A DNA stretch of 64,000 bases, taken from the NCBI GenBank assembly GCA_025558075.1, contig JAHLKF010000001.1, forward strand, positions 1,612,001 through 1,676,000, read 5' to 3'. This document shows, in pieces, positions 8,819-57,945 of this stretch (position 1 is its first letter; each line of letters opens with the position of its first letter). Source of the DNA: Gaertneriomyces semiglobifer. Lineage: Eukaryota; Chytridiomycota; Chytridiomycetes; Spizellomycetales; Spizellomycetaceae. Under the pieces are notes generated by a model that saw nothing but the letters and a program-made list of their open reading frames with translations, was not told the origin of the DNA and searched no databases. The position numbers and the translations under genes were made by a program.

Positions 8819-11800
8819 ATGCCCTCAATAACAATGACGACGAGCACGCCGCCCACCAAGTTGCTGTCTCAGCACAATGCAGAACACTATGCTGCCACCA
8901 TCATACAACGTGCTTACAGAGCATACAGAGAACGCACTCATGGCCATTTACTCATCCACTTGCAGAATATCTCCAAGGCCTACCAACGAGTCCTCATTGA
9001 GACCAGTGCGGATGGTGCAAGCGACGTAAAGGGAAAAGAAGGCCGGCCACCAGGTGCATCCCGGGCAGAAGTAGCTTTCCTCAGCCTCCTCAACAGCGAC
9101 TCCACGTTTCGGGTCGGCGCCTACCTCGCTTCAACATCCTCCTTTCCATCTACGGCCTCATCTCTATTATCTTACCACAACTATGATTCGGACTCTCACC
9201 AAACCGCCCAGGTGGACCCGAGGTTCTCCATCCTCCCGCAAAAAGACTCTTCCACTTATGCGCTCTACGTTCCACGCATCCACTCCTGGCTGCACACCCT
9301 TCTCCCCGCGCTTGTTCCACCTTACAACCCCAACACACCCTATCTGCTGCCGTATCTCCTGCGCACGGGTGACATCCTGTGCGAACTAGCGGTCGTCCTC
9401 TTCCCGCGCACCCAATGCGCGCTGCTACATAAAGGCCCTGAATTCACTGTCCATAAAGCCGTGTTCTTCTTGGAACTATGCAAAGCCGTAGGAGTCAAAC
9501 AGAAATATCTTTTTACCGTCAAAGACCTCTTATATCCTGATCCCAACGCCGAGAGCGAGGCTTCTATGAACGCAACGGATCCAACTACCGAAGATCAATC
9601 ACCCTCTCTCCTTCTCCTTCGCACGCTTGTGGCCCTGGAACGTCAGTCCCGTAAATCCGGGTTCGGAGGACCGTTCCTCTCCCTGAAACATAAACATGGT
9701 CGTCGATCCACACTCACGACGTTTGTTCCTACATCTCACTCTTCGATGTCGTTCACCATTCATCACCCAACGAACAGGACGAATTCGTTCTATGGACAGA
9801 TTATGGATGTGGAGGATGTTGTCGGTGGTGATATTGATGCGGCGCGGAAGTTGAGTGCGAGATACAGTAGGGAGAGTCTGTACAGTATCTATGCGAGTAT
9901 GCCGACAGAGAGTGGGGCAAGTGGGGGTCACAGAAACAGTACGATGATGGGTGGTAGTGGAGGTGGTGGGAGGAGACGAAGTAGCAGCAGGATGAGTGGG
10001 CAACTACGCCCGGTGTCGGGGTTCGGTCCCGTGAGTGCAAGTGTTTCCGACAAGTTAAGAAGTCTGCGCACGGAGGCTGTGAAAGAACAGGATCAACGAT
10101 TGGAGCAGGAGAAGGCTGATTTCGCAGATGATGAACATGATCAGGAGCACGAGATTGACCATGAACCGTCTGTCAGTGTTAAAAGCGAATATGAAGATGA
10201 GAGTGAGCATTCTGGGAGCGAACATGCTGATCATGGACATGGCGCGGTGCTTCAACGATCAAGACTGGAACCACAGCCGTCGGACACATCTCTCCAGACG
10301 ACATATCAGCGTCATATGAGTGTGATGTCGGTGGATGTACCTTTCAACATGAAGCAACATATCCATGCAGAGGATAGTTCGTCTTACGAAGATGAGGGGG
10401 AGCCGATTATTGATTTGAAGGCGATCGCGCAGGCTGAGTTTGGCTTTGGCGAGAAAACATTGGCAAACGGGACGAGCGAGGATACGTTAAAAGACAAATA
10501 CATGAAGCATGAGAGTGTGATGAGTCACGCTCCGAGCCAAGATAGTGAAAGTGAGAATGAGCATGGTACACTCCAACCGAGACGTGACCGGATGCAAGAG
10601 TCTTCACCGCCATTGTCAGCCTCCTCCTTTGATTCTGGAAATGAGAACGGAACCGTGACGCGGCGATGGAATAGGGAGGACGAGAGGGCAGGGACAGCGT
10701 GTGAGGAAACGCCGGGAAACACGTGGGAACATTCGTCCTCCGAGTCCGACAGGGCGCGGTCCAGATCGCTGGCGAGGTCCGTGTCGACTTCCACGTCCAG
10801 GTCACACTCGATGTCTCGCTCGGACGCGGATACGGAGATCGTGACGTTACAACGTATGAACACGTATTCCACTATTCCCGATGATGGAACGAACACGGAT
10901 TTCTCCTCGCCTGTTTCCCCTCCACCAGGCAGTGCCACGCTTCAGTCGGCGTCGCATGCACAGCAGCAAGCATCCTTGGATTTCCTAGAGTTACCCGAAT
11001 TACCGGCCCCTGTGCCGGCTACGAATATGGGGATACTAACAGACCGATTTGACATACTAGATGATAACGCGTTTGGATACGATGGGTTTGAGTATGATGA
11101 TGATATGTTGGATGTACCAAGACTGAGTATCCCACCGCCGCCGAGTCGAAGTCCACCATTCAAAAAGAGTGTAGGAGAAAAGGGAAGCAAAGCGAAGAAG
11201 CCGAGGGGCAAGCCACTCCCACCTGTGACCGGGACACCGAGTGAGGCGAGCGAGCCGACATCACCTACGTCCAAAGATACACCGACGTTACCAGTTCAGT
11301 CTGCTCGGACGCAGTCGCCACCAAAGCAACCATTGAAACTGGTTGTTCCGACACAACCGCCGACTGCACCACTACCGAGTCTTCTCCTCTCACCACCGCC
11401 ACAACAACAGTCCGCTCAACCGCTTCAATTACCCCTGTTTGATTTCGCAAAGCTGAATTCCAAACTGGACTCGAGTTTGAGTTCTTCGACACCGACCTCG
11501 AGTCTGCATTTTGGGTTGGGTGGGTTTGGATTTGGTGTGCGAGACGCGAGCGAGCCGCCTAGGAGTCCGTTACCGCCTACACCTCCCGCCAACGAAGGCA
11601 ACGGCGTGATGGGTGCGAGTTTTGGACGTGGTGGCAGCATGAGCACGAGTACGACGTTTTCGTTGGAGGATACGACGTTTGAGAGGAACTTGAAGAGTAT
11701 GGCGTTCCCGTATAAGTTTGAGAGGGAGAGTTCTGATTTCGGGGGTGGAGTGGGGACGGAGAGTGTGGTGAGTGGTGTCAGTGGTGCGACGTTTGGTGGT

Positions 11801-12580
11801 GTGATGAATTCTACAACTGTTGCGAATGGGAGTGTGGGAGCGGCACCTGTTGTACCCTTACCGACACCCGGGAGCGAAGTGGATGAGAGGAAATATCAGG
11901 ACGCAAAGAGTGAGGAGTCATCGACTAAAATCATGGCGACGACAAAGACAAGAGACCTATCGAGAGTCATTGAAATCCTCGTCACCTCTGAGCAGACGTA
12001 TATTGGACGTCTTGAAACATGTGTGGATGCCTTGGAAGAAGTGGTGAAAACATGGGAATCAGAAAACTCTTATGAGACCGATCATGACATTGAGATCATG
12101 AATGCTTCCATGAGGGAGGACACGACGCCCGAAAACACGACTGGCGATCGTGCCGAGATCCTCCGTGAATTTGGGACGTACAGTCCTAACCCATACACGC
12201 CTCTGTTGTCCATCCATACTTTACTGCTTGAATCCCATCAATCGTTTTTGGATGCGATACGACAACTTCAGTCGACAGGGAAAGCAAGCGTGGGAAAAGA
12301 GGCAAGAGGGTTGGCACAACAGCTCAAACAGCACATTTTACGGATTCTGAACCCCGTGGTACGCTACATCGTGATACGGACTCGTGAACCCGACACTCTG
12401 AGTGACATCTATAATGCTGATTCGAATGACAGTGGTACGCGGTTGTGTTTGAGGAATGAGATGGATCGGGTTGTGAACATTTATGAGGGTGTGGCGGATC
12501 ACATTGACGATGGACAAATCATACGGGAGCTGTGTAAGAGGGTGCGGGGTGTTGTTGGGGTGACGGTAGACACAGCGTAA
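8819..12580 (+). CDS. large IQ / calponin-homology / DH-like (RhoGEF) protein
   Basis: A single uninterrupted exon encodes 1253 residues. An IQ motif opens the protein (IIQRAYRAYRER, about 23-34) and would bind calmodulin or a light chain. A calponin-homology-like region covers about 140-245 (VFFLELCKAVGV, LFTVKDLLY). Residues 330-1030 are low-complexity, rich in Ser, Pro, Glu and His and presumably disordered. From about residue 1042 to the end there is a DH-like domain (SRVIEILVTSEQTYIGRLE), the catalytic module of Rho/Cdc42 exchange factors. CH plus DH recalls Cdc24, but no PH or PB1 domain follows: the frame stops right after the DH-like helices. It probably links actin or polarity to calcium signalling (inferred). 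Whether the DH is complete is uncertain. Confidence 0.75.
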   Translation: MPSITMTTSTPPTKLLSQHNAEHYAATIIQRAYRAYRERTHGHLLIHLQNISKAYQRVLIETSADGASDVKGKEGRPPGASRAEVAFLSLLNSDSTFRVGAYLASTSSFPSTASSLLSYHNYDSDSHQTAQVDPRFSILPQKDSSTYALYVPRIHSWLHTLLPALVPPYNPNTPYLLPYLLRTGDILCELAVVLFPRTQCALLHKGPEFTVHKAVFFLELCKAVGVKQKYLFTVKDLLYPDPNAESEASMNATDPTTEDQSPSLLLLRTLVALERQSRKSGFGGPFLSLKHKHGRRSTLTTFVPTSHSSMSFTIHHPTNRTNSFYGQIMDVEDVVGGDIDAARKLSARYSRESLYSIYASMPTESGASGGHRNSTMMGGSGGGGRRRSSSRMSGQLRPVSGFGPVSASVSDKLRSLRTEAVKEQDQRLEQEKADFADDEHDQEHEIDHEPSVSVKSEYEDESEHSGSEHADHGHGAVLQRSRLEPQPSDTSLQTTYQRHMSVMSVDVPFNMKQHIHAEDSSSYEDEGEPIIDLKAIAQAEFGFGEKTLANGTSEDTLKDKYMKHESVMSHAPSQDSESENEHGTLQPRRDRMQESSPPLSASSFDSGNENGTVTRRWNREDERAGTACEETPGNTWEHSSSESDRARSRSLARSVSTSTSRSHSMSRSDADTEIVTLQRMNTYSTIPDDGTNTDFSSPVSPPPGSATLQSASHAQQQASLDFLELPELPAPVPATNMGILTDRFDILDDNAFGYDGFEYDDDMLDVPRLSIPPPPSRSPPFKKSVGEKGSKAKKPRGKPLPPVTGTPSEASEPTSPTSKDTPTLPVQSARTQSPPKQPLKLVVPTQPPTAPLPSLLLSPPPQQQSAQPLQLPLFDFAKLNSKLDSSLSSSTPTSSLHFGLGGFGFGVRDASEPPRSPLPPTPPANEGNGVMGASFGRGGSMSTSTTFSLEDTTFERNLKSMAFPYKFERESSDFGGGVGTESVVSGVSGATFGGVMNSTTVANGSVGAAPVVPLPTPGSEVDERKYQDAKSEESSTKIMATTKTRDLSRVIEILVTSEQTYIGRLETCVDALEEVVKTWESENSYETDHDIEIMNASMREDTTPENTTGDRAEILREFGTYSPNPYTPLLSIHTLLLESHQSFLDAIRQLQSTGKASVGKEARGLAQQLKQHILRILNPVVRYIVIRTREPDTLSDIYNADSNDSGTRLCLRNEMDRVVNIYEGVADHIDDGQIIRELCKRVRGVVGVTVDTA

Positions 12581-16271: not shown

Positions 16272-19200
16272 ATGTCCTATCAGTTCCCGCCGCCGACCTC
16301 ACGTCAGCATTCTGGCCAAAATCCTTCACAGATGGGAATGCGACCCCCACCACCACCGCCACACGATGGGCAGGATGGGCATCATCTAAATGGACAACGA
16401 CCGTTGAGCGGAGGAAAGATGTCGAGTGCCTCGTATGATGGAGGAGGGTATCTTCCGCCGCCACATTATGGTGGAGTCAGTCATGGACATGGGCCTCATG
16501 GCCCACCCCAACAGGTAAGCTTGAATGTCACAGACATGTTTTGCTGGTCTAAAAGTGCTCGAGTTCACTGATATGTTGGTCAAATTGCTTCTGAACAGTT
16601 ACCTCCTCTCCATATCCCCTACTCCTACTCAAGCTATCCGCCGCATCCGTCGCCATCAAATTACCATTCCCAACAAGCCATGTCCGTGCATCATGGGCAT
16701 GGCCCACCACCACCGCAAACGCATTCGGCTCACGGACACGCACATAGCAATAGCGACGGAGGGCAAGGCGGCCATGGCGGATCAGGATCCAGCCTTGGTC
16801 CTGGAGGATACCCATACAAGCAAGAATTCCCGCAACGGTGGATGTCTCCACCCCCACTCCACCAGTCTTCACACTCGCAACAATCACATTCATCCCATCA
16901 CCATCACCTGCCACCGCATCTACCTCCGCCGATTTCCACACACACACTACCACCACCTCAACAGCAATCTTCGCAGCACGGTTTGCCTCACCCGCGATCG
17001 GCGCCTGTCGAGTTCCCACCACCAGACGCAGGATTTTTTGAACCGATGGATTCATACAATGGTGCTGGCTACCAGCGTATGTCTGACTATCGTGACTACG
17101 ACGACATGAATATGAGTAGATCTTATCCAAGCCATCCATCCTATGCACCAGGCATGACGCGATCAAGTTCGTACAGCGGTTACGGAACTTCACTGCCGCC
17201 TCCACATAGCGGAAGCTCGAACGGTGCCGGTGCAGGCCGCAACCAGGACACATATGGTGGATATTCATTATCCGCGGCATCTGGTTCTTCCATGCCTTAT
17301 TCTGGTACGTCGAATCCCCCGAGTCATCAGCACGCCTCGCACCCGCCGCCCCCGCCACTGAATATACCTTTACCGCCAGCTGCAGAGGAGATGGCGTATT
17401 CGCCTGCTGTTGAGAAAGAAGCGGGCTACTTTGGACGGCAGTTGGGTAATGTCAACAGAGATATTATGTATTCGCCGAGCACACCCACCACGCCGTTGGG
17501 TTCATTAAGTCTGGGGAGTTATCCGCCGTTTCCCGATATGAAAGGTGTCTCGGGGTCGACTGCCACTGGCAATTCGTCGGGGCAGAATGGATCGTATGCT
17601 CACCCAAGCGGGTCCATATCGATTGTACCGAATGCTGCGGGTACTGCAGCACGCAAGGGCGCGGTTCCCCGGCGCAAGAAAACGACGCTGACGGAGCTTG
17701 CCCATTGCACGCGATGTAATTCCACGATTGCGACGTTGATCTTGCATGGTACGCCTGAGACGCTCTCCCAGCCACATGTGATTGATATGCGATGTCTGGC
17801 GTGCGAGTTCGGGATGGACGTGGCGATGGAGACGCGAGTGGCGCCGCCACCACGGCGGAGAAGAAAGAGGGTGCAAGTGTATGGTCCTGGAGCAGAGTTG
17901 GATTGTGATGTGTGTATGAGACGGATTGGGAGTGGTGGTGTGAGACGCGTGCAGGAGTATGGGTATGAAGGTTATAATGGGCAGAATGCGTCGTATTATG
18001 ACCAGCATCATCAACATTCGCCTTCGAATGGTGGTGGTGGTTTTGCGCAATCCGCTGGGTTGTATGGGGGCAATGGTGCGGCCGGAGGTACAGGTGGAGA
18101 AATGTCGGGATCTGGATCAGGGAGTGGTGGTGGTCATCATCGGTCGTCACAGGAATGGGTTGAACCGCAGTTTGAAGTGGAGGTGATATGTGTTTCATGT
18201 CATAGCAAGTACGCGCTATGTACGGAATGCGGAGGTGGAGGCACGTTTCGCACGGGCAAGTGGCGACCGAGGGAGTTGTTCCCCAAAGGCCGCAAGACGT
18301 GTAGTTTGAGCCATTTGCGGGTAGGGTCGAATGCGAAAATGGAGATCTATGTGTGGAAGTTGATTGAGGAGGTGTGCATGCCGATCGAGGAACCTCCGCG
18401 GGAAAAGATTTCGTTTGTGGATCAGACGGGACAGTGGGATCGACGATGGACGCCTACTGCGGCTGGGAGCGCATCTGGTCCTGGGTCTGGATCTCAACAG
18501 CAAGGACAGCAGGGACACTCTTCGCCTGACCAACCGGCTCAGCGGTACGTGTATGGGACTCAGGCGTTACCACTTCTCCTTCGCGAGTTACGCGAAGTGT
18601 ACGAAGACGGTTTCATGACGAATCTTGCAGTGCCGACCGTCATGGAGTCTTTACCGATGGTTTCCACATGGGAAAAAATCACGGGGAGATTCGAACGTGC
18701 TTGGCACGAGTTTATGGGTGCGTTGACGCGGCCGCGCGAAGGCGTACGGATCATGATGGCTGTAGCGTGGATGAAAATCGACAATGACGGACGACGGTAT
18801 GGGAAGAAAGGCAAAACCGCCCATCATGGTGTTGGGTTACGGGTTGCGAAATCAGGGTTCGCGTCTTTACAGTCTTCGGGTGTCTCCGGTGCTGCGGGCG
18901 ATCCGATTGGGAGTAGCAATGGTCATGGGAACCGCAATGCAATGATTGATTGGGAATCCATGCATCGCACGCCCCCAGGTGTCAGCGGGGCGTCGGAATA
19001 CCGGACTCGGCTTTTGGTGTCGTTCTTGACGGTGATGTGGCGCATGGAAGATGGGATCATTCTGCTGATCCCCAGCGCTGATCGAGGAACCGATCCGACA
19101 CCCAATGGGATCACTGCAGAGCTATTGCGTCGCGTCATTGGTCGAACGCGGGCTGACGCTGCTCTGGAAGGGTTGCCTGACGTGAAACACTTGTGGTGTT

Positions 19201-19547
19201 ATATGCGCAACCCGTCTGCGACTGCCCTGCAGCAGCACAGCACGCTGCATCAGACGACCACCGATTCCCCGCCACCGCCTCCGACAGCGTTACCAGGTGG
19301 GTCGGGTGGGTCGAGTGGAACCTGGCGGGCTGCAGGGATATTAGGCCGGTTAGGCATGGTGCCTGTTGAACAGTATGTTGCGAGTCTTGCCAAAGAGTTC
19401 ATTAACCAAACGGAACGGATGCCGGATCCGAGAGTGTTTGATGATGAGTTTCCGGCAGAGATTCGTGAGTATTATAGAGTTTATGGGACGGGGATTGCGG
19501 ATGTGGAGAGGGTGTTGCAGAGGGGTCGCCGAATTGTTGAAGGGTAG
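16272..19547 (+). CDS. large Cys-rich (probable zinc-binding) protein of unknown function
   Basis: Two exons (16272-16514 and 16599-19547; donor GTAAGC, acceptor gaacag, phase 0) give 1063 residues. The first 380 or so residues are a low-complexity region of Pro, His, Gly, Ser and Tyr that opens MSYQFPPPTS. The middle carries paired cysteines: CTRC at 451, CLAC at 480, CDVC at 517, CVSC at 612 and CTEC at 622-625. These could form two or three zinc sites. After the last pair comes a striking block, FRTGKWRPRELFPKGRKTC, then a folded, well-conserved-looking region to the end with helices and a SFLTVMWRMEDGIILLIPS core. I recognise no named family. Nuclear regulation or RNA work is a guess only. 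Confidence 0.8.
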
Positions 19548-20293
19548 GAAGAGCGGGAGGGCGGCGTGCTATGTTCCTTATTGGGAAGCGAAATGCACTT
19601 ATTTGGCGTTTTTATTAATAGTTATATCCGACTGTGTGGGTGGAGGGTGGAGAATGGAAGAGAGGAGGTTGAACCGGGAAAATCATATATAGAGAAACCA
19701 TTTTTTATTTGGACGCGGAGTCTCTTTGAGTGCTGAGGTTTTTTTTTTATTTCTCATAATCGTGGATGAATTACTGCGTGGGGAGGTGATGGGAACCGGT
19801 GGATTAGACAGAGAAAATTAGATAATATCTTGTCGTCGTGTGAATGTGTGTGTGGGCGTATTGACGAAATTATTGGGATGTTGGGATGGGGAGTTAGAGA
19901 AGATAAAAAGTAGAAGTTGGGTGGTGTGTACCTGTGTATTTGTTCATCTTGTTCATCGTAAAGAGCATTTGTAAATCCTTATGCGTCTTTTCGAAAAATA
20001 TGATGCTTCTGAACCAGAACCTGCATACATGCATTACCGATGAACATTTTCACCTACTCGGCATCGGTGAGAACCTCGGTGTCGAGATGCATATGTAGAT
20101 CTTGGTTTTGGCGGAAGCGGTAGAACGTTCAAGTAAGTGAGCTCGTGCTGTCTGGCTGGGTGTGTTTCTCGCGTACATATTGTTATTGATTACCAGATAA
20201 TGTCGGCGCTTCAAAGCTTGCCTTCCATTTGAACATGGGAGAAGTGACGGAAGAGAGGACGAGAACACTGCAAGGGTTTTTCGCTAAACAAGG
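19548..20293. other. intergenic region
   Basis: This is the 3' flank of the Cys-rich protein gene, with T-rich runs (19698-19750), followed by the promoter of the small acidic protein gene. No gene, repeat or RNA could be supported. Confidence 0.55.
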
Positions 20294-25128: not shown

Positions 25129-26661
25129 CTATACCATCGCACTGGGTTCCTGACGCTTCGCAGGTGCCCCAGGTATGGCAGGTACAGCGGGGACCAGGGC
25201 AATCGTCGATTGTCTCGAAGTCCCCGTAACCGTCCCATCATCATGTGACGGGCGTCTTGCCTGCGACGGTCTCCCGCCAAAGAGCGACTTGCGACTGGTC
25301 TTGCCATCAAAACTGCTCCTTCGTCGCTTGGGTTCGTCGACAGGCTGACAGTACTCGATGGTGCAGTCCTCACAAAACTCCTTGGGCAACCATCCGAACC
25401 GCACAAAGATGTAGATGAGCTCGCAGGCAAGGCAAAAGTTGAGGACTCCGGCAGCGAAGGCAGCTGCACAGAGAAAGCCGTACACTACGTAGGCTGCAAC
25501 TGCGTAGTCGAGGAAAATCAAAACAAGGCCGGTGAGCGAGAAACAGAATCCGACCATTTGGGCGAAGTGTTTGGGCACGCCGGATGTGAACTTGGGCTTG
25601 ACGTTGAACAACCAAGCGATTGTGGGGGAGATTACGAATAATACCATGAACTGTGAAATATTGATATGTGAGTGATGGGATCGACAGACAACATCCGAGA
25701 AAAGCAAATACTCACAGCTTGAGGATCTACGCGTGGCCCACACAACATACGAGCTGTGAAGCCGTACAGAAGGTACACCAAGATCCAGCGACCCCACGTA
25801 TACCCATGTGCATACAGGAGAACTCCGGTCAGCACGAGAATCATGCAGCACAAGTTATGGCACCGGGCCTCGTTCTCATTGATGGGGTTGGGGAAGCTGA
25901 AGAACTTGCGGAGTGTGAGGTCCTTCAAGTTCAAGAACCATAGCGCCTCTTGACGGGAAAGCGCGAGACGGCGGCGGAGAGTGACCGAGTTGAGGAACTT
26001 TGGACTAAACAAAGGCAAGGATGCAATCAGGACCTATATCGAAGGCTGCAAATAAACCAAAGAATGTGACTTACTAGACGTCTGACAACATCAGCTTGTA
26101 GATATCGTTTTTGATGGTGTCGAAGATTGCCCGATTGTAGACTTTCGAAGCCTTGCACTCCCGGACAAGCGCCTCGGCTTCTTTCCGCGGCCTGACATCA
26201 ATATTGATCTGTCGCGGGGCCGTTTCCAGAATGAATTCCGATAACAACCAATCCACCTCTTCTTCATAATGGCTCTCATCAGTGCATGCCTGAAACGCCT
26301 CCACAGCCAGGTAGAACTCGGGAAGTTCTCGACAAAGCGTGTCGTCACAGTGAGAAAGCAGAGCCTGCAAGTCGAACGGATGCTCGGACTTGCTGTGGAG
26401 GATCATCAACATCGACGGGGCGTCCCCAACGATAACAAGCTTCTGCCCCTTGATGGCTTTAGGTTTTCCGGTTGGAAGGCTTGTGACGTGGGCGAAATGC
26501 GGGCATGATGGGACTTGACGCTGTACGTCGCGGCGACCTGATTTGAGTGGATTTACAGACTGACGCTTGGTGGGAGAGTACGGGCCCGGGATGTCGATGG
26601 CATGGTCCGGTATGGTGACTTGAAGGCGAGGGCTAACTTGACCGTTGTTGAAGGCAGCCAT
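25129..26661 (-). CDS. RGS domain fused to a DUF4395-type membrane domain
   Basis: Three exons (26661-26075, 26004-25716, 25650-25129) give 465 residues. Donors are GTAAGT and GTGAGT; the phase-2 join rebuilds DVYPKFLNS, a proper end of an RGS fold. After a 60-residue basic leader, an RGS domain spans about 75-215 (DTLCRELPEFYLAVEAFQ, DIYKLML). Residues 225-390 contain four transmembrane segments with the DUF4395 signature: a His-Asn near the first helix, GPRVDPQAF, and Cys residues in NFCLACELIYIF. The tail is Arg/Ser-rich. RGS domains speed GTP hydrolysis by G-alpha subunits. Joining one to this integral-membrane domain suggests a receptor or anchored regulator (inferred). The function of DUF4395 is unknown. 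Confidence 0.85.
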
Positions 26662-27525: not shown

Positions 27526-29505
27526 ATGTCTTCAAACGTAACGGTCACCCTTGAATCGGAACCCTACCGCAAGGTAGTGGTGAAGACCACACCAGCCATG
27601 ACCCTGAAAAGTATCACGGATAGCGCGGTCCAACAGATGAAGCTGTCAGGGACAGGGTGGGGTCTCAAATATGGCAAGAATGTAATGGATCTATCTCTGT
27701 CTGTTCGGTTTGCCAATCTCGCTGCCGGTGCCAAGCTGACTTTAGTAAAGACCAAGGGGTCAGCAGGTATTTCTACACGATCCCATGTGTTTATCCGTAG
27801 CCATCATCGCAAACTAACGCCGCGGGCTTTTTGGTTAGGAAATCTCGTCGCAATCGCCCTTCAATTAGATGGCAATGAACGGCTCGTTGACAAGTTCCTG
27901 TCGGATTCTACGACGCTATGGAAGATTTTGCAGCACTTTGAGAAGCTGAGGAGGTGCGAACACCCTTCGCTAGTTGTTACCCAAAAGCTCGGGTTCACTC
28001 ATGCGGCGCTTCCATTCAGTGATCTCAATCTTACCCGACGAACAGCGAGTACTGGATATCTCATGCCTGTGTGCCTGTTGATGAACAGAGAGGTACGCCG
28101 TCTCTCTGATGTACGGTGTTGCGGGAACCAATATCTCACTGAAATAGCCAGTTCAATACTCTTGAAATGCTCATGAGCACGACTTTAAAAGATGTGGGCC
28201 TCGTGTCTGGGAACGGAGTGATACGGCTGTCACATCGGGGATGTGGCATGTCGCTGGATGATGCGATGCGAGAGGTGGAACGACTCGAGGCGACAGCGCC
28301 TGCTCCTGTTGACAACAAATCAACGATGGCGCCTGTGTCACAACGAGTTTCAAGGCCTTCATTGGCATCCGAGACTAGTTCGCCCAGCACCGAACCTGTT
28401 CAGCCGTCCCAGAACGAGGTGATGGCACCCCGAGAAGTACCTACGGCTCAGCGTGTGCTGGCTCCACAAATGCCGGAGACTCGTCCACTCGAGCAAGATG
28501 GGGCAAGTCAACGTGATGAAAGGACAGTTGCAGAAGACGCGCATGAGACGTCTGGGGAGGGTGATGAGGTGAATAGCATGGCTGACAATGTAGTTTTGGA
28601 TGAGCCGGGCTAAAAGATGGTTGTTCTCACCAGCAGAGCTATGACCGCGAGATCAAAATATACCGACCTCCGGTGGATTCGCGAGGCCCCACGCAAAGTG
28701 AGTTACTCCTGGACACAAGAAACCTTTGTGGATCCACAATGACATGTGATTGTTCGTCCCAGTCGAACTACCGGATTCGTTCTTTGAGCTGACTTCAGCA
28801 GAACTGAAGTTTCTCATCCAGTCCTCTAAATCCCGCGCACAAGCCAACGACAACGCTCCGCTCATGACGAAAGCCATGCGTGACAGAGAGCAAGCCGCCC
28901 GGCAGAAAAAGTACCCTAAAACAATGATCCGGGTTCGGTTTCGCGATCGATGGGTTTTGCAAGCCCAGTTTCTCAGCAATGAGGAAGGTGAGCACACCCA
29001 ACGCCAAAGCACTTCATGTTCGCTGAGCGTTTTAATGATGCGTGATTGCTTTACCCTATCAGTATCGAATCTCTACGATGTCGTCCGATCAGTGCTTGAC
29101 CGCAGTGATCGATCATTTGTTTTGTACACAACCCCGCCGTACCAGGTCATTGATGCGGCCGTGACGTTTTGGCAGGCAGGACTCGCACCAGCGACGGTGG
29201 TGTACTGTAAATGGACCGATGAAGCAGCTCCGGATGGTCCAGAGCTGAGTTCGGAGTGGCGAGCAAGGGCTCAGGACCATCCGGGGGTACCAACCGACAT
29301 CCCATCGTCTGCGGTGTTGCCGGGGGCCGGTACCTCTGCCGCGACGGAGCAAGGACATGGGACTTTGGGAGCAGGACACAGACTGACAGACGAAGCTGGG
29401 CCGAGCAGACCACTCGAAAAATCGTCGAGGGAAGGCTCAAGCCGGCCGTCTACTGGAAATGGCAAGCCAACGATGCCCAAGTGGTTCAAGATAGGGCGTA
29501 AATAA
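27526..29505 (+). CDS. ASPSCR1/TUG-like UBX-domain protein (CDC48 adaptor)
   Basis: Six exons (27526-27766, 27839-28092, 28152-28568, 28634-28697, 28763-28987, 29063-29505) give 547 residues with consistent phases. Residues 5-80 are the TUG-UBL1 ubiquitin-like domain (TLKSITDSAVQQMKL, WGLKYGK). A second ubiquitin-like/RBD region follows (VAIALQLDGNERLVDKF). Next comes a disordered stretch of about 110 residues, then the segment QSYDREIKIYRPP, an LPDSFFELTSAELK motif and a C-terminal UBX domain (FRDRWVLQAQFLSNEE, then VSNLYDVV). Proteins of this family bind the CDC48/p97 ATPase and disassemble its hexamers or tether membranes. CDC48 itself is encoded in this window. The intron at 28569-28633 is placed by phase and family pattern and is the least certain. 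Confidence 0.85.
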
Positions 29506-30983: not shown

Positions 30984-32108
30984 ATGGCTACAGAGATTCA
31001 CAAGATTTGCGATAACTTTACAACAGGAGAGCTTTTGACGGCTGCTCGTCAATTGGGGATCAACCCTTGTGGAGACGACAAGTACGACGTTGCAGTGTCG
31101 CTTTGGTCGAGAGAGGTTTCTATCGACCGTATCCAACACTTGATTCAAACGCTCACCATCAACATGCATGCCGAGAGCGCCGGTGGCTCACCGCCCTCAC
31201 CGGCACCCTATGAGGACATCATTGCCTCTTACAACTTTGACAGTTGCAGAACCACGACGGAGAAGCCAGCGCCGGTCGTTCGCCCAGTCGGTGGCTTGCC
31301 TTCCTCGTTTTACGAACAGTTGGATGAGCTGTTGATGAACATGTCGGGAAAGCCTGCTCGAAACGATAACAGAAAGCCTTACCGTCGCCCGCTTCGCAAA
31401 ACCGGAAAGCGTGTGGGCGGCTATCCCACGTCTTTCTACGACCAACTCAACCAAGTCATGGCGACCATTTCTGGCGGAGAATCATCAAGTAGGCCACAGA
31501 AAGAGCACGAGTCTTGCCGAAGCCGCCCGCCTGCACGGGTCAGTGAGCGTGCGGTAGGAAACCTTCCAGCAGAGTTCTATAACCGGTTGAGCCAAGTGTT
31601 GATCGGCATGCCAGTCGTGAAAACGGTGATGGCGGAAAAGATGAGTCAGCCGCCCAAACGCCGAACCGACCGGCGCGTTGGAAACCTTCCCGTCGCATTC
31701 TACGCTCAACTGAATGCAGTGGTGATGAGCAATATTTCCAACGAAGCGCCTGTTCTGGTGACTGCTGGTGAATTGGAAGCTGAAGAGAAGCGCACTCGGA
31801 CGACGCCTAAGCCACGGAGTGCAAGTCTACCGTCCGGGTTCCCTGCTCAGTTAGAGCTTTTGATGACTAGAGGAGCAGCGCCTGCGCCTCTCACTGAGAC
31901 GGAAGCTCCGATCCAACCCTCCAAGTCGACCATTCCGATCCCACCACCAAGACCTGCGGTCAACATGCCGGGAACTGTGCGGTCTGTGGGAAAGCTGGAC
32001 CCTAGTTTCTACAACCATCTAAGCGAAGTGCTCAAGAACATTTCTGCTGGTGCTGTTCCTTTGAGTTTGGAGAGAGATGAGGTTGACGGTGAATGGATAC
32101 TTGTTTAA
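30984..32108 (+). CDS. novel repeat protein with six F-Y-x-Q-L units and a C-terminal LIR-like WILV
   Basis: A single exon encodes 374 residues. The first 60 residues are helical and loosely SAP-like (TTGELLTAARQLGINPCG). Six copies of a unit of about 22 residues follow, at 100, 143, 189, 231, 278 and 333: VGGLPSSFYEQLDELL, VGGYPTSFYDQLNQVM, VGNLPAEFYNRLSQVL, VGNLPVAFYAQLNAVV, a divergent SASLPSGFPAQLELLM and VGKLDPSFYNHLSEVL. The consensus is R-x-V-G-x-L-P-x-x-F-Y-x-Q-L-x-x-V-L-x-x-I-S. Disordered basic or Pro-rich linkers of about 20-33 residues separate them. The last residues are acidic followed by GEWILV, which fits the WxxL/I/V Atg8-interacting pattern. I know no family with this repeat. 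It may be a multivalent scaffold (inferred). Confidence 0.75.
   Translation: MATEIHKICDNFTTGELLTAARQLGINPCGDDKYDVAVSLWSREVSIDRIQHLIQTLTINMHAESAGGSPPSPAPYEDIIASYNFDSCRTTTEKPAPVVRPVGGLPSSFYEQLDELLMNMSGKPARNDNRKPYRRPLRKTGKRVGGYPTSFYDQLNQVMATISGGESSSRPQKEHESCRSRPPARVSERAVGNLPAEFYNRLSQVLIGMPVVKTVMAEKMSQPPKRRTDRRVGNLPVAFYAQLNAVVMSNISNEAPVLVTAGELEAEEKRTRTTPKPRSASLPSGFPAQLELLMTRGAAPAPLTETEAPIQPSKSTIPIPPPRPAVNMPGTVRSVGKLDPSFYNHLSEVLKNISAGAVPLSLERDEVDGEWILV
31281..32045 (+). repeat. six degenerate repeats inside the protein-coding region
   Basis: The six repeated units occupy protein residues 100-121, 143-164, 189-210, 231-252, 278-297 and 333-354. DNA identity between units is low while the protein pattern (Gly, Leu-Pro, Phe-Tyr, Gln-Leu) is kept. 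This points to old duplication maintained by selection rather than a recent tandem expansion. Unit 5 is degenerate: it lacks the Val-Gly pair and the Tyr. Confidence 0.75.
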
Positions 32109-49198: not shown

Positions 49199-49384
49199 TT
49201 CGCAAAGAGTCTATATTGAATTGTGGTAAAACTAGCAGCTGCGAGGCCTCAAACCCAAAAAGTTTGGGTGAATCAAAAAATAGTTAACACGCTTTGGCCA
49301 AACACCCACAATTGCGACAACGACATCCCCAATCTGTTGCTCCTTGGTTTGGTTGGTTGTAAACCCAGACGGACAAGCCAAACT

Positions 49385-51130
49385 ATGAGCGGCACCAACG
49401 GCCTGAGCCAAGATGATTTCCGCAAACTCCTCATGACCCCCCGCCCTTCCTCCGGATCAACTTCAACGATCGAAACACCTCGAAAACGACCACCTCCAAC
49501 CCCCCGCGGCGGCAGCAGCAGCGGTGGGACCAGTCAATCCACAAAGGACAGCGATGGATTCATGGTACCCACCACCCTATCTCGCCCAAAGACCAAGAAG
49601 CTATGGAAGCCCCCATCCTCCAGCGACAACCGAGACCAAACCAACCCGACTTCCTCCTCCTACCGCGATCGTGCCAAAGAACGTCGAGAAGGAGCAAACC
49701 CCGATTACGCCCACGGCGAGCAAATGCTAGAAGTCCTGAAACAGTCGTTGGAGCAACACGGTGCTGCTGGCCCCGGTGGCCCGCTTCTCTCCTCCACAGA
49801 TGTGGATCCCGCCACATTATCATACGAGCAGAGCAAGTACCTTGGTGGAGATGCCGAACATACCCATTTAGTAAAAGGCCTCGACTATGCCCTGCTCGAG
49901 AAAACTCGGAACGAGATACAGAAGCAGGAGCTGGAGTTACAGAAGGAGAAAGAGGCTCAAGCATACGTTGAACAAATGCACGGCGATGGGGCGACGGCAA
50001 AGTTCAATTCCATCCTTGCGGCGAATATTTATGATATTGTGGTCAAGAAAGCCAAGATTGAGTATCCAAAGAGAAACGAAATGTTTGTCCCCGGTCGAAT
50101 GGTATTTCATTGGGACTTGTCTGCGTGGACTGCCGATGGGGAGCCCATTAGTACCTCAGACATCCCGACCACTGTGATTCGGAGTAAGGCCGAGCTGCGA
50201 CCAACTGATCTCGGATTCGTCAGTTCGAATGATTTGGTAATAGACAAAATCACGGCGGTGATGGCAGGGCTAAGGGATGGATCAAGAGGTCATCGTGGGG
50301 GAACGAAGAGCATGAAAAAGAAAAGCAAGCATCACAGTGAGACAGACCACGAGGGACGCCAGCAGGAGGATATAAATGTTCCGGTGCAAACTCAACCGGC
50401 GCCTGCGTCTATCGACGATGATGATGACGATATTTTTGGTGATGCAGGTCGAGATTATGAATTAAACGTTCCTGAAAGAAAGGCGGATCATGTCGCACCA
50501 GCAATCAAGCCGCACCTGTTTGATGCGTCGTTAGATGAGCCTCCAGAAGCCATGGACGTTGATGTCTCCCTCCCCGCTGGAACAATCAGCAGTATAGTAC
50601 AACAGGGCACTGGAGGTTTAGATTCCTTGGAAGGAAACACCGTTGTTCAGGACCTGGGGTACGCTTTGGAGGCCGCACCGAAAGCACCCGCATTTGGAGA
50701 GCGTGTCGCTGTTGAACCTAACGTGCCGAACAAGCGCCGCATCTCGGAAACGCAAGAACCAGCTGCGGACGACTTTGATGCTGACCTCGCTGACTTGGAT
50801 GACTCAGCCCCCTCTGACGCTAGCGGAGCAGCCAACATCCAACCGGATCGTAGCGACAACATCCACCGCAAACAGCGAGTAATGACGCGGTTAGATTTCG
50901 ATACCGACGAGGATTGGCAGCGACACAAAAAATCGTATGCCGCTTTCCAATATGATCTGGAACCCGAGGAAAAAAGCGGGAAGGCTGGTAAACGAGGAAA
51001 CCCAGGAAAGAAAAGCCATGATGCCAAGTTGAATCGTGATTTCCAGCAGCTGAACAAGGTCTACAGCGCAAAGTACGGCGAAACTCTAGGTGACGGGAAG
51101 CAAGGGAAGAAGAAGAAGCAGAAGAGGTAG
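49385..51130 (+). CDS. IK: RED (IK) spliceosomal protein
   Basis: An intron-free frame; the ATG at 49385 (MSGTNGLSQDDFRKLLMTP) is chosen over 49223 because the RED N-terminus starts with this Asp-Phe-Arg motif. 581 residues. The RED_N region has SYRDRAKERREGANPDY, EQSKYLGGDAEHTHLVKGLDYALL and an acidic-coil run. The acidic DDDDDIFGDAGRDYE and basic KKKKQKR tail are also typical. Human RED/IK joins the precatalytic spliceosome (B complex) with SMU1 and is needed for B-complex activation. It is divergent from RRP8 and ends 33 bases from the converging farnesyltransferase alpha gene. Confidence 0.9.
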   Translation: MSGTNGLSQDDFRKLLMTPRPSSGSTSTIETPRKRPPPTPRGGSSSGGTSQSTKDSDGFMVPTTLSRPKTKKLWKPPSSSDNRDQTNPTSSSYRDRAKERREGANPDYAHGEQMLEVLKQSLEQHGAAGPGGPLLSSTDVDPATLSYEQSKYLGGDAEHTHLVKGLDYALLEKTRNEIQKQELELQKEKEAQAYVEQMHGDGATAKFNSILAANIYDIVVKKAKIEYPKRNEMFVPGRMVFHWDLSAWTADGEPISTSDIPTTVIRSKAELRPTDLGFVSSNDLVIDKITAVMAGLRDGSRGHRGGTKSMKKKSKHHSETDHEGRQQEDINVPVQTQPAPASIDDDDDDIFGDAGRDYELNVPERKADHVAPAIKPHLFDASLDEPPEAMDVDVSLPAGTISSIVQQGTGGLDSLEGNTVVQDLGYALEAAPKAPAFGERVAVEPNVPNKRRISETQEPAADDFDADLADLDDSAPSDASGAANIQPDRSDNIHRKQRVMTRLDFDTDEDWQRHKKSYAAFQYDLEPEEKSGKAGKRGNPGKKSHDAKLNRDFQQLNKVYSAKYGETLGDGKQGKKKKQKR

Positions 51131-51163
51131 CCTGGCTGGTAGGGTTATAAGTGTTTTTCCAAC

Positions 51164-52365
51164 TTATGTATTTCTCAATACATCGTCGACATGAGCATTT
51201 GGTTCGGGTTGTGGCAACTGCTTGGCCCGATAGCGCCAGTACTTTTGGCGGATAGGGTCGTAGTCTTCCAATGTGGCACATATCTGTAACCAAGGATGAG
51301 CACATAAGCTGGAGCGGCGAGTAATAATGCTCATCTATCACCTGTCGTGCTTCTTCGAAGTTCTGCCTTTCAATATTGATATCCATCAACATCGCCAGGC
51401 CGTGAGGGAGTGCTTGACCGCGGTCTCGCAGGGTGATGCAGGTTTGCTCAACCATTGGGAAATCAAGGAGGCTCTTGTTTTGCAGCTTGATAATGCTGTT
51501 ACGATATAGTATAAGTATTTCGTTCATGAGCGGACGTCGGTGGAATATAAAATGCAAAACAGACCCTTTCAGATATCTCCATGGGCTCTCATTTCTCGGA
51601 GCGATCAGAACCCTTTCCAAAACATACTGAACTTCCCCTTCCAAATCCTCATCCGTAAATCCTTGCGGCCGGTTTTTGAACACCCAGTATCTCTGGTTCC
51701 AAGCCGAGTTGTTGCGAATGTCATCATCGAGGAGTCTATCCACATCTGGTATTTCTCCATCCCACAAACTGAATGTCGACACGACCCACTGGCGGTACGT
51801 CCAAGCATGATAGTTCTTCGAGTCCTCTTCCAAAGCTCGGTTTATGAACGCAATCTCGTTTGTTGAATCTTGCGTTTTCGCGATAATGGATTGGCGATGG
51901 TGCCAGATTTGGTAGCTCTTGGGATTATCCTCCGCCATGGACTCGATAAAGTCGAGTTCCGCGGTAAAGTCATTGGTGAGTTCCATGAGTGTTTCTAATC
52001 TGTATTGCCTACATAGGAGGCAAGTTTGGTTTATCATGACTGAGAGGGCGAAGCCTGAGAGCGGTCCCTACCAAACGGTATAATGCCCAGGGTTCTTCCT
52101 CACGAGGTATTCTGTCAGCTTCAAAACTCGATCACTCCGTTCCTTACTGCTCAGAACTGCTCGGAAGTAGTTCATCGCATCTGAATCTATCATCGTCGTT
52201 CGTGTTATGGACCTGCATTGAAAGGGGGCATTACCAGCACGGGAACTTACATTCTGGCGCATAAGCGATGGGAACGAGTGGATTCGGGCCATCATCCTGT
52301 GGGATGGGCGTAACATCTGCCCAGTCTGGGCGCTTGCTGAAGAGTGTATCTGTGTCTGCGCTCAT
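51164..52365 (-). CDS. RAM2: protein farnesyltransferase / geranylgeranyltransferase type I alpha subunit
   Basis: Four exons (52365-52251, 52186-52072, 52008-51342, 51283-51164) give 338 residues. PFTA repeats are plain: [40 protein letters not shown] and [10 protein letters not shown]. In intron 1 the nearest AG gives a stop codon; the later gatag acceptor rebuilds [15 protein letters not shown], the expected family sequence. The last exon ends [15 protein letters not shown]. The alpha subunit pairs with a farnesyl or geranylgeranyl beta subunit to prenylate CaaX proteins such as Ras and Rho in the cytosol. It converges with RED with a 33-base gap, so transcripts may overlap. Confidence 0.94.
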
Positions 52366-53986: not shown

Positions 53987-56900
53987 ATGATGGGCCTCGG
54001 CAGACGAGGTACCAATTCTCAGAACAAATATGTAGGACTTATACGCGCCGGTCTCACCGGAGAAAACTTGTGGAAGAAAGATAAAACCGACAAAGTGAAC
54101 ACTCCTGGGCACAAACCAGTCAAAGCACAACGCGGGGAAGCGCGCGGGACCAGCCGACTGCCTGTAACGAGTGGGAAACGGCCAAGTATTGATGAGGGTT
54201 CAGCAGCTCAAACTAGGGAACTCTCCCTGGCGGCGATTGTGGTTCGACAATGGCGGAACTTTGTCAGACTTCGCAAAACGACTGCCCTTGCAGATGAGTT
54301 CCTGAGACGGCGTATTTGCAAAGCGACCTTACGACATTGGAAGGTCGCCGTGATTGAAAAGCGGAGACTGTGGAAACTGGGAGTGAAGGCGAACGTGCAC
54401 TTCAAGTACGTGGTTGCCAGCAAGGCATGGCGCGCCTGGACAACATTTGTGGCAAGCCAGCGCGCGCAAGTTCTATTGAAGAGACGAGCGGATCAGTTCG
54501 GTGTGTAGGCTTACAGGACATGTGATTCTCCCACTGCGGCTCATATTCCCTTCGCAGTACGTCGGTCGCAAATCCGAGTGTGGTTAAAAATTTGGCGACG
54601 ACTCCACTCAACATATCGCTCTTGCGTCGATGCAGAGGAGAATGCCGAGCTACTGTACAGAAAGCTGATGGTTAAGCGTACATTTGGCATATGGTTCCGA
54701 GAATATGAAAGGCGCTTGCTACTCTCACAACAGCTACGAGCGGCGAATGATGTGTACGAGCAGCTGCTGCGTCGGAGAACTTTGAAGACTTGGATTAATG
54801 CTCATTGGCATCAAGTGGAACTTATGAAGTTGCATGATCAGGTTGCGGCCCAGAGTGGGCTGCTACTTGTCAGGACATTCCTCGGCGAATGGCGGCGACA
54901 GTTGAAGATAGCACAAGATTGGAAGGCGCGAGAAGGTATGCATGTAAGCCCGTAACATAATGAGCGGTGCACACTGCTAAGGTCATGCATATTAAGCAAG
55001 TGCGGCGGAATACTACGAACGCACTGTGCTTCGATCGCTCTTATTGGCTTGGCAATCCCGCTATCATGAGCACCGCGTCCTCAAAGGCGTCGAGTTACGC
55101 TCCAACGCATTTCGCCGTCGATGGATACTGAGGAGATATTTTTTTGCCTGGAGCCAGTGTAAGAGTGTTTTCTCGCGAGTAATAAAGTTATCTGTGGACT
55201 TACTGTGTTTGTCATTGCAGGCACGATTCAGGCCACTGCGGAACGAAAGAAACTCGAAGTGTCCGACTACTTCCATCGCAACGTACTGAAGGTATGGATG
55301 TCCGGCGGAGCAGCTCATCCATGGCCGATTGCTTACAGGTTATGGCACCCGTAGCGTCAGGTCTTGACATCGCTTAATACGCTTCGAACGTTGAATGATA
55401 TAGCTGTCAAATATCGGGTAAAGCAAGTAAGATCACGTAATGCGAGCCAGGTGTAGGATATGAACGTTTATTGAGCCCACAATCAGGCGATGTCCGCTGC
55501 GTGGCGGTCCTGGTACGCCGCGCTTGAATGCCGTAGGGATTTTCGTGATCAAGAAGAATTGCAACCAGCTGTAGCATTTCGTGACCTCAAAATCAAGCAG
55601 CATGTTATACGTGTTTGGAGAACACGCATAGTAGCTCAAAGGGCGAAGCAGGTGAGGATAGCTAATAGTGGAAATTGAGATGTTGAAACCTAACGTAAAC
55701 TCCCTAGGAACTTGTTCGTATGGCCGACAAGTTCAGACGTCGATATATATTGCGCCGAGCGATGAAGTATTTTCGGCATTTTAAGGTACTTACAATGTTG
55801 CGGAAAAATCAGGACGACCTTGCCACTCTCGCGTTGCAAGCGCGACTTCTACGTGGCTGTTGGCATTCGTGGCATGAGGCACTACAGCGACGTCGACTAT
55901 GCGAACAACAACAGACGGAGGCCGATATATTCCAGGAAGCCTTTGCCGCTCGGCGGATGCTTTTAGCATTGCGGATAAGTTATCGTCGACGGGTAACCGC
56001 TCGGAGAAAACAAGCGTTAGCAGAACAGCACTGGAATCAACTTGTCACGGTGCGCGCAATACGGGCATGGTGGACCTACGTGGACGCGTCTAGCCGACGA
56101 ATGAGCCAATGGCGAGCGGCCGTCAGGATGCAAACTAGGAGAAGAATACGATATTCTTGGGAAATATGGCGCCGTCGAATCAATGATGTTCATGATGAAC
56201 GCGTGAAATGGCGACTTGCCGTAGCGCACTCCGATCGGTTGTGTAAGACCGGGGCGTTTGTCGCATGGGCGGCTTTTGTGAAAGCCAACGGTGCCTTCCG
56301 TGGTGCAGTCAGAGATTTTAAACGGCGTCGAAAACAAGAGTGTCTAAAGGGGTATTTGGCAGTGTGGCGGCAGAAGTTGATGTCAACTCGCCAAATCAAT
56401 GTTATGGCTGATGAAGCAGGCAAGCAATGGGAAAACCGGATTTTGCAGTGCATCTTGTTTTCATGGAAGAATTACGCAGATCTGAGAATTGAGCAGCGGA
56501 CGTTGCAGGAGTCTATTCTAGAAAAAGCGACGGCACGATTATCTCAGCTAAAGGTGGCAGCGATGATGGATCACTGGTTGCTGCGAGCACATTCAAAGCG
56601 ACATTTGCGTGCGTGCGATGAACAGGCTGTAAGCTACTATCAACAGAATATCACCTGCAAAGCTTTTCACTTTTGGAGAGTACTGAGTCTGCATCGGGTT
56701 TGGGAAAAAAGGGCGACTGCCGCTGCAGTGCAATGTTTTGAACGGAATCTGATCGCAGGATATTTCCGAAGGTGGTACGGTCAACGACCGGACTGGGCAG
56801 CCATCTACGATGCGCGAACCCGACAACCCCTTGTATACCGTAGCAAGCACTTGATGCGGGAGATATTGCAACATTGGCACGCTTACGTCGGTCGTAAGAA

Positions 56901-57945
56901 AGCGATGCGCAACCGCATCCAGGATGCAATGGGTTGGCGGCGGGATCATCTTTTGCGCAAGGCAGCCGCACAATGGCTTAGAATTGCCGACGATTTACAT
57001 ACTCAGCAAGTGAAGACAAGGTTGTCACACGGCGCATCGGGAAACATGGGTGAATGCGAAAAGGCCCGGAGATGCGCCTTGCATTGGCGAGCAAAAGTAT
57101 TGGAAGCAAGAGCTCGACGGGGCACCTCTCTGCGTTCATCAGATCCTAGCGTGCTCTTGATGCAAATGTCCACCAAAGCGGTTTTGGAGCGAATTGATTT
57201 ACAGCTGAAACCAGTGAGTCGATTGGAATCACCACAACTCCCGCGCCAGTCAGCACCCGAGCTGCAGCAGGAAGCGGCGACCGCAGAAAACGCTACTGCT
57301 ATGCACAGAATGGCGCGGCGTCGTCCACCACCGCGCGTACCTGATTTTATTGCTAATGCAATTTCAGGCGGCGCTCCTGCTGAGCTATTTAGCTTTCCAT
57401 TACGGGCGACTGAGACACCTACGACATCAACGCTGGTTAGGAGCGATGATGGCGTACTTTCGACTTCATCATCGAGGGGCAACCCTCGAGACACCTTCGT
57501 TCATACCGAAATTAATGAACTGTCAGCTACCGCGCCTAGTGCTGTTAATCCCGATGCGCGAGATGGCGTTAAGAGTAGTAGTGAGCGGGAGAACTCTGAT
57601 CGCAAGGATATAGCACATCCGCCGCCAGTGGAGGCACTCAGATCGCCTTCTGAGATAACTTTGATGGAGACCGAGCTTCGCATGTATCGTGAACTCCGTG
57701 AAGACCATAAGAAACTCGTTGTGGAATTGCAAACGCTGCAGGAAGAACTGGCAAATAGTTTACGCGAGCCAGGCCCTTCGCAGGCGACCATCACTGAACA
57801 GGCGCGCCGGATAGACGCGTTACGGGCACAGATTCGCGAGCTTGAAGAGTCTGAACCTCATCACAAAGTCGTGATGGCTCGAAAGATTGGGACACTGTTA
57901 CGAGAATCGTGCAGCAACGAAGCCGTGAAGAAAATCTTATTCTAG
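53987..57945 (+). CDS. SFI1: SFI1-like centrin-binding repeat protein
   Basis: Seven exons (53987-54500, 54558-54935, 54997-55158, 55221-55291, 55361-55426, 55487-55651, 55708-57945) give about 1197 residues. The start at 53987 (MMGLGRRGTNSQ) is chosen; an in-frame ATG at 53855 would add 44 residues. From about 90 to 820 the protein is a long alpha-helix of repeats with a hydrophobic-x-x-Trp core, such as LRHWKVAV, AWRAWTTFV, VWLKIWRRL, GIWFREYE, LAWQSRY and AAWRSWYAAL. These bind centrin at spindle-pole bodies and centrosomes. The C-terminus has a disordered part and a coiled coil (EITLMETELRMYRELREDHK). Centrin filaments fit a flagellated, centriole-bearing cell. Small internal exons are less certain than the rest. 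Confidence 0.88.

Follow-up and report, generated by a model that had tools for sequence, protein, structure and literature searches.

A chytrid protein with six units of a candidate helical docking motif behind a SAP-like domain

What might a protein do that carries the same short segment six times over, when that segment belongs to no family in the libraries we searched? The question is raised by a gene in Gaertneriomyces semiglobifer, a member of a chytrid genus within the Spizellomycetales, whose assembled genome comprises 20.86 Mb in 66 contigs. The gene lies in a stretch of 64,000 nucleotides, referred to here as the window, and is read from a single frame of 374 codons that runs without interruption to a TAA stop. 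The surrounding open frame spans 380 aa and thus extends just six codons beyond the ORF, so that its start is well fixed. Codon usage did not distinguish this frame from the others, and was left out of the evidence. The features of the gene, all on the forward strand, are as follows.

30984..32108, forward strand: single-ORF gene for the repeat protein (374 aa, coordinates including the stop), supported by the uninterrupted ORF and by a full-length homologue, HDU85_002333, with the same start and end
30984..31178, forward strand: predicted SAP-like four-helix N-terminal domain, residues 1-65 (AlphaFold2 helices 2-11, 14-24, 33-42 and 47-65)
31275..31349, forward strand: unit 1, residues 98-122, VVRPVGGLPSSFYEQLDELLMNMSG; motif match, low-confidence AlphaFold2 helix 107-121
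31401..31475, forward strand: unit 2, residues 140-164, TGKRVGGYPTSFYDQLNQVMATISG; motif match, low-confidence AlphaFold2 helix 149-162
31542..31616, forward strand: unit 3, residues 187-211, SERAVGNLPAEFYNRLSQVLIGMPV, with AEFYNRL as in human SF3A3; motif match, low-confidence AlphaFold2 helix 196-208
31665..31739, forward strand: unit 4, residues 228-252, TDRRVGNLPVAFYAQLNAVVMSNIS; motif match, low-confidence AlphaFold2 helix 237-248
31806..31880, forward strand: unit 5, residues 275-299, PKPRSASLPSGFPAQLELLMTRGAA, degenerate; motif match, no predicted helix
31974..32048, forward strand: unit 6, residues 331-355, TVRSVGKLDPSFYNHLSEVLKNISA; motif match, AlphaFold2 helix 340-354, pLDDT of the block 46-63
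32067..32105, forward strand: acidic C-terminus ending W-I-L-V, residues 362-374, a formal match to the Atg8-interacting motif; WILV is identical in the homologue

An earlier note, made from the sequence alone, had described six recurring units of an F-Y-x-Q-L type, and six are indeed present, far in excess of what shuffled sequences contain. The motif [LY][PD]xxF[YP]x[QRH]Lxx[VLI][LVM], itself derived from these data, occurs six times in the protein and never in 20,000 shuffles. A motif-free test agrees: the top ungapped off-diagonal self-match scores 75, where 200 shuffles reach at most 46, and the ten top self-matches sum to 603, where the shuffles reach at most 294. The units are anchored at F109, F151, F198, F239, F286 and F342, at intervals of 42, 47, 41, 47 and 56 residues, so that the spacing of 42-55 given previously is about right but properly reads 41-56. 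The proposed consensus, R-x-V-G-x-L-P-x-x-F-Y-x-Q-L-x-x-V-L-x-x-I-S, needs some correction: unit 2 reads YP and unit 6 LD in place of LP, and unit 5 (PRSASLPSGFPAQLELLM) is degenerate, lacking both VG and Y. Just two residues, the F and the L that follows four positions later, never vary among the six, and any two units share between 4 and 13 of 25 residues. Where two units do agree in a residue, they mostly use different codons (77 of 116 identical pairs, leaving out M and W), which marks their likeness as old and maintained at the level of the protein.

AlphaFold2 places a helix of 12-15 residues at units 1, 2, 3, 4 and 6, within sequence that is mostly modelled at low confidence; an additional low-confidence helix, residues 210-220, lies outside the units in the linker after unit 3. 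The unit helices carry hydrophobic residues at positions 0, 4, 7 and 11, and in addition a Y at +1 and an L at +8. Their hydrophobic moment is 0.51-0.73 in four of the six and low (0.30) in units 4 and 5, and their net charge runs from -3 to +1. The linkers had been called basic, which holds for linkers 1-3 (K+R to D+E of 8:1, 5:3 and 5:1), but acidic residues prevail in linker 4 (3:5) and the two kinds are equal in number in linker 5 (2:2). Between the N-terminal domain and unit 1 lies a further segment, residues 75-87 (31206-31244, PYEDIIASYNFDS), that is unchanged in the relative described below while the residue preceding it has changed; it may be another short motif.

The N-terminus had been described as helical and SAP-like. 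The first part is borne out by a predicted compact four-helix domain (residues 1-70, mean pLDDT 84, pTM 0.70) that would fold on its own; the second is less secure, as SAP domains appear only among weak, non-significant structural neighbours. These neighbours include the SAP domain of a rice SUMO ligase, PIAS-1, Tho1 and FAN1 464-532, the last three of which we take to be SAP domains. The nearest known domains would be SAP domains, chiefly those of the PIAS/SIZ type with four helices. Unlike known SAP domains, the N-terminal domain has no sequence match to the SAP profile (PF02037), either in the Pfam scan of the protein at E up to 1 or with the first 69 residues at E up to 10, and the gene is not among the nine SAP matches that the genome yields at E up to 1. 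Nucleic-acid-binding SAP domains are not known to be net acidic, unlike this one (5 K+R and 8 D+E in residues 1-62), a composition that argues mildly against nucleic-acid binding here.

The distribution of the protein is narrow. In a collection of 5.8 billion proteins, the sole homologue found is HDU85_002333, a hypothetical protein of 373 aa from Gaertneriomyces sp. JEL0708, which is identical at 353 of 374 positions (94%) with one gap, and has the complete set of six units as well as the terminal WILV. Three queries, namely the whole protein, residues 94-214 and residues 1-70, returned nothing beyond it in that collection. The search scores only those candidates that share exact five-residue words with the query (at least 7991 for the first query, 72 for the second and 44 for the third), and may thus overlook orthologues that have diverged in other Spizellomycetales; failed detection is known to make genes seem lineage-specific (PMC7660931). 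The unit is equally confined within its own genome, where no second gene carrying it was found by exact pattern or by composite query. The exact pattern matched seven times, three times in this gene and four times elsewhere, as often as a reversed control pattern (seven); two of the four outside matches fall in an open frame in register, each as a single occurrence. The composite unit query gave five matches, all within the gene, and a motif scan across 41 loci, many of them overlapping, revealed no other unit array. The repeat protein is a genuine chytrid protein, so far undescribed and restricted to the genus.

Comparison of the two sequences also bears on the history of the array. Each unit matches its own JEL0708 counterpart at 23-25 of 25 residues, and any other unit at no more than 13 of 25; the length and order of the array therefore predate the split of the two species, and no recent homogenisation of the units is seen. 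One explanation of such a gene is that of an orphan evolving fast, in which internal duplication produced the repeats and no binding role is under strong selection. This would sit well with the failure to find homologues outside the genus and with the degeneracy of unit 5, whose Y position is P in one species and R in the other. Neither test for fewer changes within the units was significant: 4 of 144 unit residues differ between the species as compared with 16 of 230 elsewhere, leaving out the gap (Fisher p 0.10), and 2 of 72 do so at the core positions (p 0.28). The lower rate within units is thus suggestive, not significant, and two near-identical sequences would barely test constraint on the protein. 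Against such an orphan, all 12 unit copies retain the F and the L that follows it by four residues, albeit in two nearly identical species, and the mixed codons at shared unit residues speak for retention of the protein sequence. On balance, we regard this explanation as unlikely.

The earlier note knew of no described family with this repeat, and none has come to light, with no significant match in Pfam, NCBIfam or the PDB. The profile search that it had proposed placed the units in no family of these libraries; the top PDB profile match, a CRISPR Cascade subunit at E 0.63, is regarded as chance. The FYxQL motif was not found described in the literature searched, nor was the repeat in the titles and opening lines of abstracts of 10 of 20 papers on SURP domains and linear motifs. 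The repeat itself is therefore absent from the libraries searched, although the underlying principle, a flexible chain strung with several helical docking motifs, is familiar.

The explanation we favour, with somewhat better than even confidence, is that the protein combines a SAP-like four-helix domain with a mostly disordered chain bearing six copies of one helical docking motif, and is multivalent. In each unit, an extended arm, RxVGxL, would lead into an amphipathic helix capped by proline, F-Y-x-Q-L-x-x-V-L-x-x-I, and the unit would fold upon binding to a hydrophobic groove of one folded partner. Several copies of that partner, or several sites of an oligomer, could then be gathered by avidity, at a spacing set by the length of the linkers. 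Avidity for one partner is read from the anatomy, namely six units, a flexible chain and a folded domain, and we likewise infer the disorder of the linkers, folding on binding, a single common partner and the scaffold role. Helical units within mostly low-confidence sequence are compatible with the multivalent scaffold that had been suggested beforehand, although low pLDDT with two sequences would not prove the linkers disordered. Some points count against a docking array: unit 5 is degenerate and has no predicted helix, units 4 and 5 have a low hydrophobic moment, the other unit helices are of low confidence, and helix 210-220 is predicted outside the units. Motifs read by αα-hub domains differ in sequence from the unit described here. 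These hubs are folded domains that bind short helical motifs of disordered proteins (PMC9127584), and the likeness lies in the use of short helical motifs of disordered regions, although for the repeat protein the bound state is only proposed. With its unit order unchanged in two chytrids and no described family found for the repeat, the gene is a clear instance of a protein that is confined to one lineage and probably has a multivalent docking role.

The same helices could instead pair with one another or insert in membranes, in which case the protein would assemble with itself or coat membranes and would not be a docking array. Hydrophobic positions at 0, 4, 7 and 11 do resemble heptads, and the basic linkers 1-3 could touch acidic lipids. 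Yet the unit helices are just 12-15 residues long and are separated by linkers containing Gly and Pro, the low-confidence single-chain model (pTM 0.22) gives no support for helix packing, and the charge range of the helices is unlike that of basic membrane helices. These features leave self-assembly or membrane coating improbable. A further candidate, in which the helices act as nuclear-export signals, was set aside. The export pattern matches the protein five times, at the 99th percentile of 5000 shuffles, and three of the six units fit the class 1a spacing as it is generally understood, but any repeat of amphipathic helices could give such a mild excess.

The docking array would need a partner, for which SURP-domain splicing proteins are the best lead, though they warrant no conclusion. 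The SURP-binding region of SF3a60, SF3a60_bindingd (PF12108), gives the only Pfam signal in the protein at E up to 1 (E 0.0016, 18.8 bits). SF3a60 uses a long amphipathic helix to bind the second SURP domain of SF3a120 (PMC4666396). The units might accordingly mimic this helix of SF3a60 (SF3A3), docked on the second SURP of SF3a120 (SF3A1), such that the protein gathers or titrates SURP splicing factors in the nucleus. Both share the amphipathic pattern F-Y-x-R-L-x-x-[IV], and unit 3 has AEFYNRL followed by x-Q-[VI] in common with human SF3A3 and with the peptide chain 2dt7_A. By a simple BLOSUM score, unit 3 reaches 37 against SF3a60 helices, more than any of 300 shuffles (mean 18.9, maximum 35) and more than the top value from 12 window proteins totalling 5255 aa (24.5). 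The genome encodes SF3a60 and has SURP matches above cut-off, six in number and spread over four places, of which C4 and C3 carry pairs, and a nuclear protein would suit the SAP-like domain and basic linkers 1-3.

These points are offset by several others. The PF12108 score falls below the curated cut-off of 22.3, and no single stretch passes alone; in pieces of the protein, units 1-2 give E 0.068, units 3-4 give E 0.16, units 5-6 do not match, and none of the six single units does. The likeness covers about nine positions, and the remaining five units, at 9.5-25 against SF3a60 helices, do not stand out from the top-scoring stretches of unrelated window proteins. Moreover, SF3a60 was chosen after a scan of the whole of Pfam, so that the local tests are post hoc. 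The architectures also differ, since the SF3a60 of this genome matches the domain model once and continues into a basic/His tail, whereas the repeat protein has six copies, a VGxLP arm and no such tail. Mimicry of the SF3a60 helix is thus, to our minds, an unlikely explanation of the units, and the fuller proposal drawn from these sequence likenesses, of a chytrid-specific multivalent ligand whose six SF3a60-like helices cluster or titrate SURP splicing factors, is one we would rate as very unlikely. We know of no precedent for a regulator with multiple SF3a60-like helices for SURP domains. If the lead were true, an early-diverging fungus would have multiplied a splicing-factor contact into an array, which could serve directly as a multivalent probe of SURP domains; if it fails, the repeat protein becomes another orphan scaffold.

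The C-terminus raises a different prospect, that of a receptor or adaptor for selective autophagy in which WILV would engage Atg8 and the units would capture cargo. The generic Atg8-interacting pattern is [WFY]-x-x-[LIV], or W-x-x-[LIV], with acidic residues nearby. The protein does end as had been described, with acidic residues and then WILV (...ERDEVDGEWILV), exactly at the terminus and likewise in JEL0708, and the genome encodes Atg8. DGEWILV fits the pattern formally, although so exact a C-terminal end has a chance of 0.003 (about 0.3%) at this composition, at which many proteins of a proteome would carry one. Six further generic [WFY]xx[LIV] matches occur in the protein, five of them as Y-x-x-L inside units 1-4 and 6. 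AlphaFold2 draws the C-terminus as a short strand pair (362-364/371-373) at a pLDDT of about 60. The domain plan of Atg19 is not one of repeated units behind a SAP-like domain. Yeast Atg19 does provide a precedent for the position of the motif, its canonical WEEL (residues 412-415) likewise forming the last four residues (PMC5148612). Apart from the weak PF12108 match, Pfam finds no domain in the repeat protein, and its SAP-like domain points elsewhere than autophagy. The link to selective autophagy entertained in the earlier note is therefore not upheld: nothing beyond WILV points to it, its pattern is generic, and conservation of WILV in HDU85_002333 has little power between proteins that are 94% identical. 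We consider an autophagy receptor highly improbable. Separately, Y76-x-x-I79 within residues 75-87 also matches the generic Atg8-motif pattern.

The upstream neighbour of the gene is a split TUG/UBX gene, in which Pfam places PF11470 in frame 27526-28176 and, as a borderline match, PF00789 in 28750-29505. On the far side lies a nitronate monooxygenase gene (PF03060) that occupies two frames, followed by a YL1 gene (PF05764) on the other strand. Elsewhere in the window, three forward-strand frames have no Pfam match at E 0.001: a 1253-aa ORF (8819-12580), a 955-aa open frame (16680-19547) and a 741-aa open frame (55720-57945). The stretch of the second contains the window's top GC skew (0.27, 18001-20000), and overlapping open frames are present there on the other strand as well. 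A RED-like gene (PF07808, PF07807) occupies 49223-51130 on the forward strand, where its frame overlaps the low-coordinate end of an opposite-strand prenyltransferase-alpha frame (50820-52037). On the reverse strand, 25129-25851 encodes a DUF4395 domain (E 1.1e-14) within this fungal genome.
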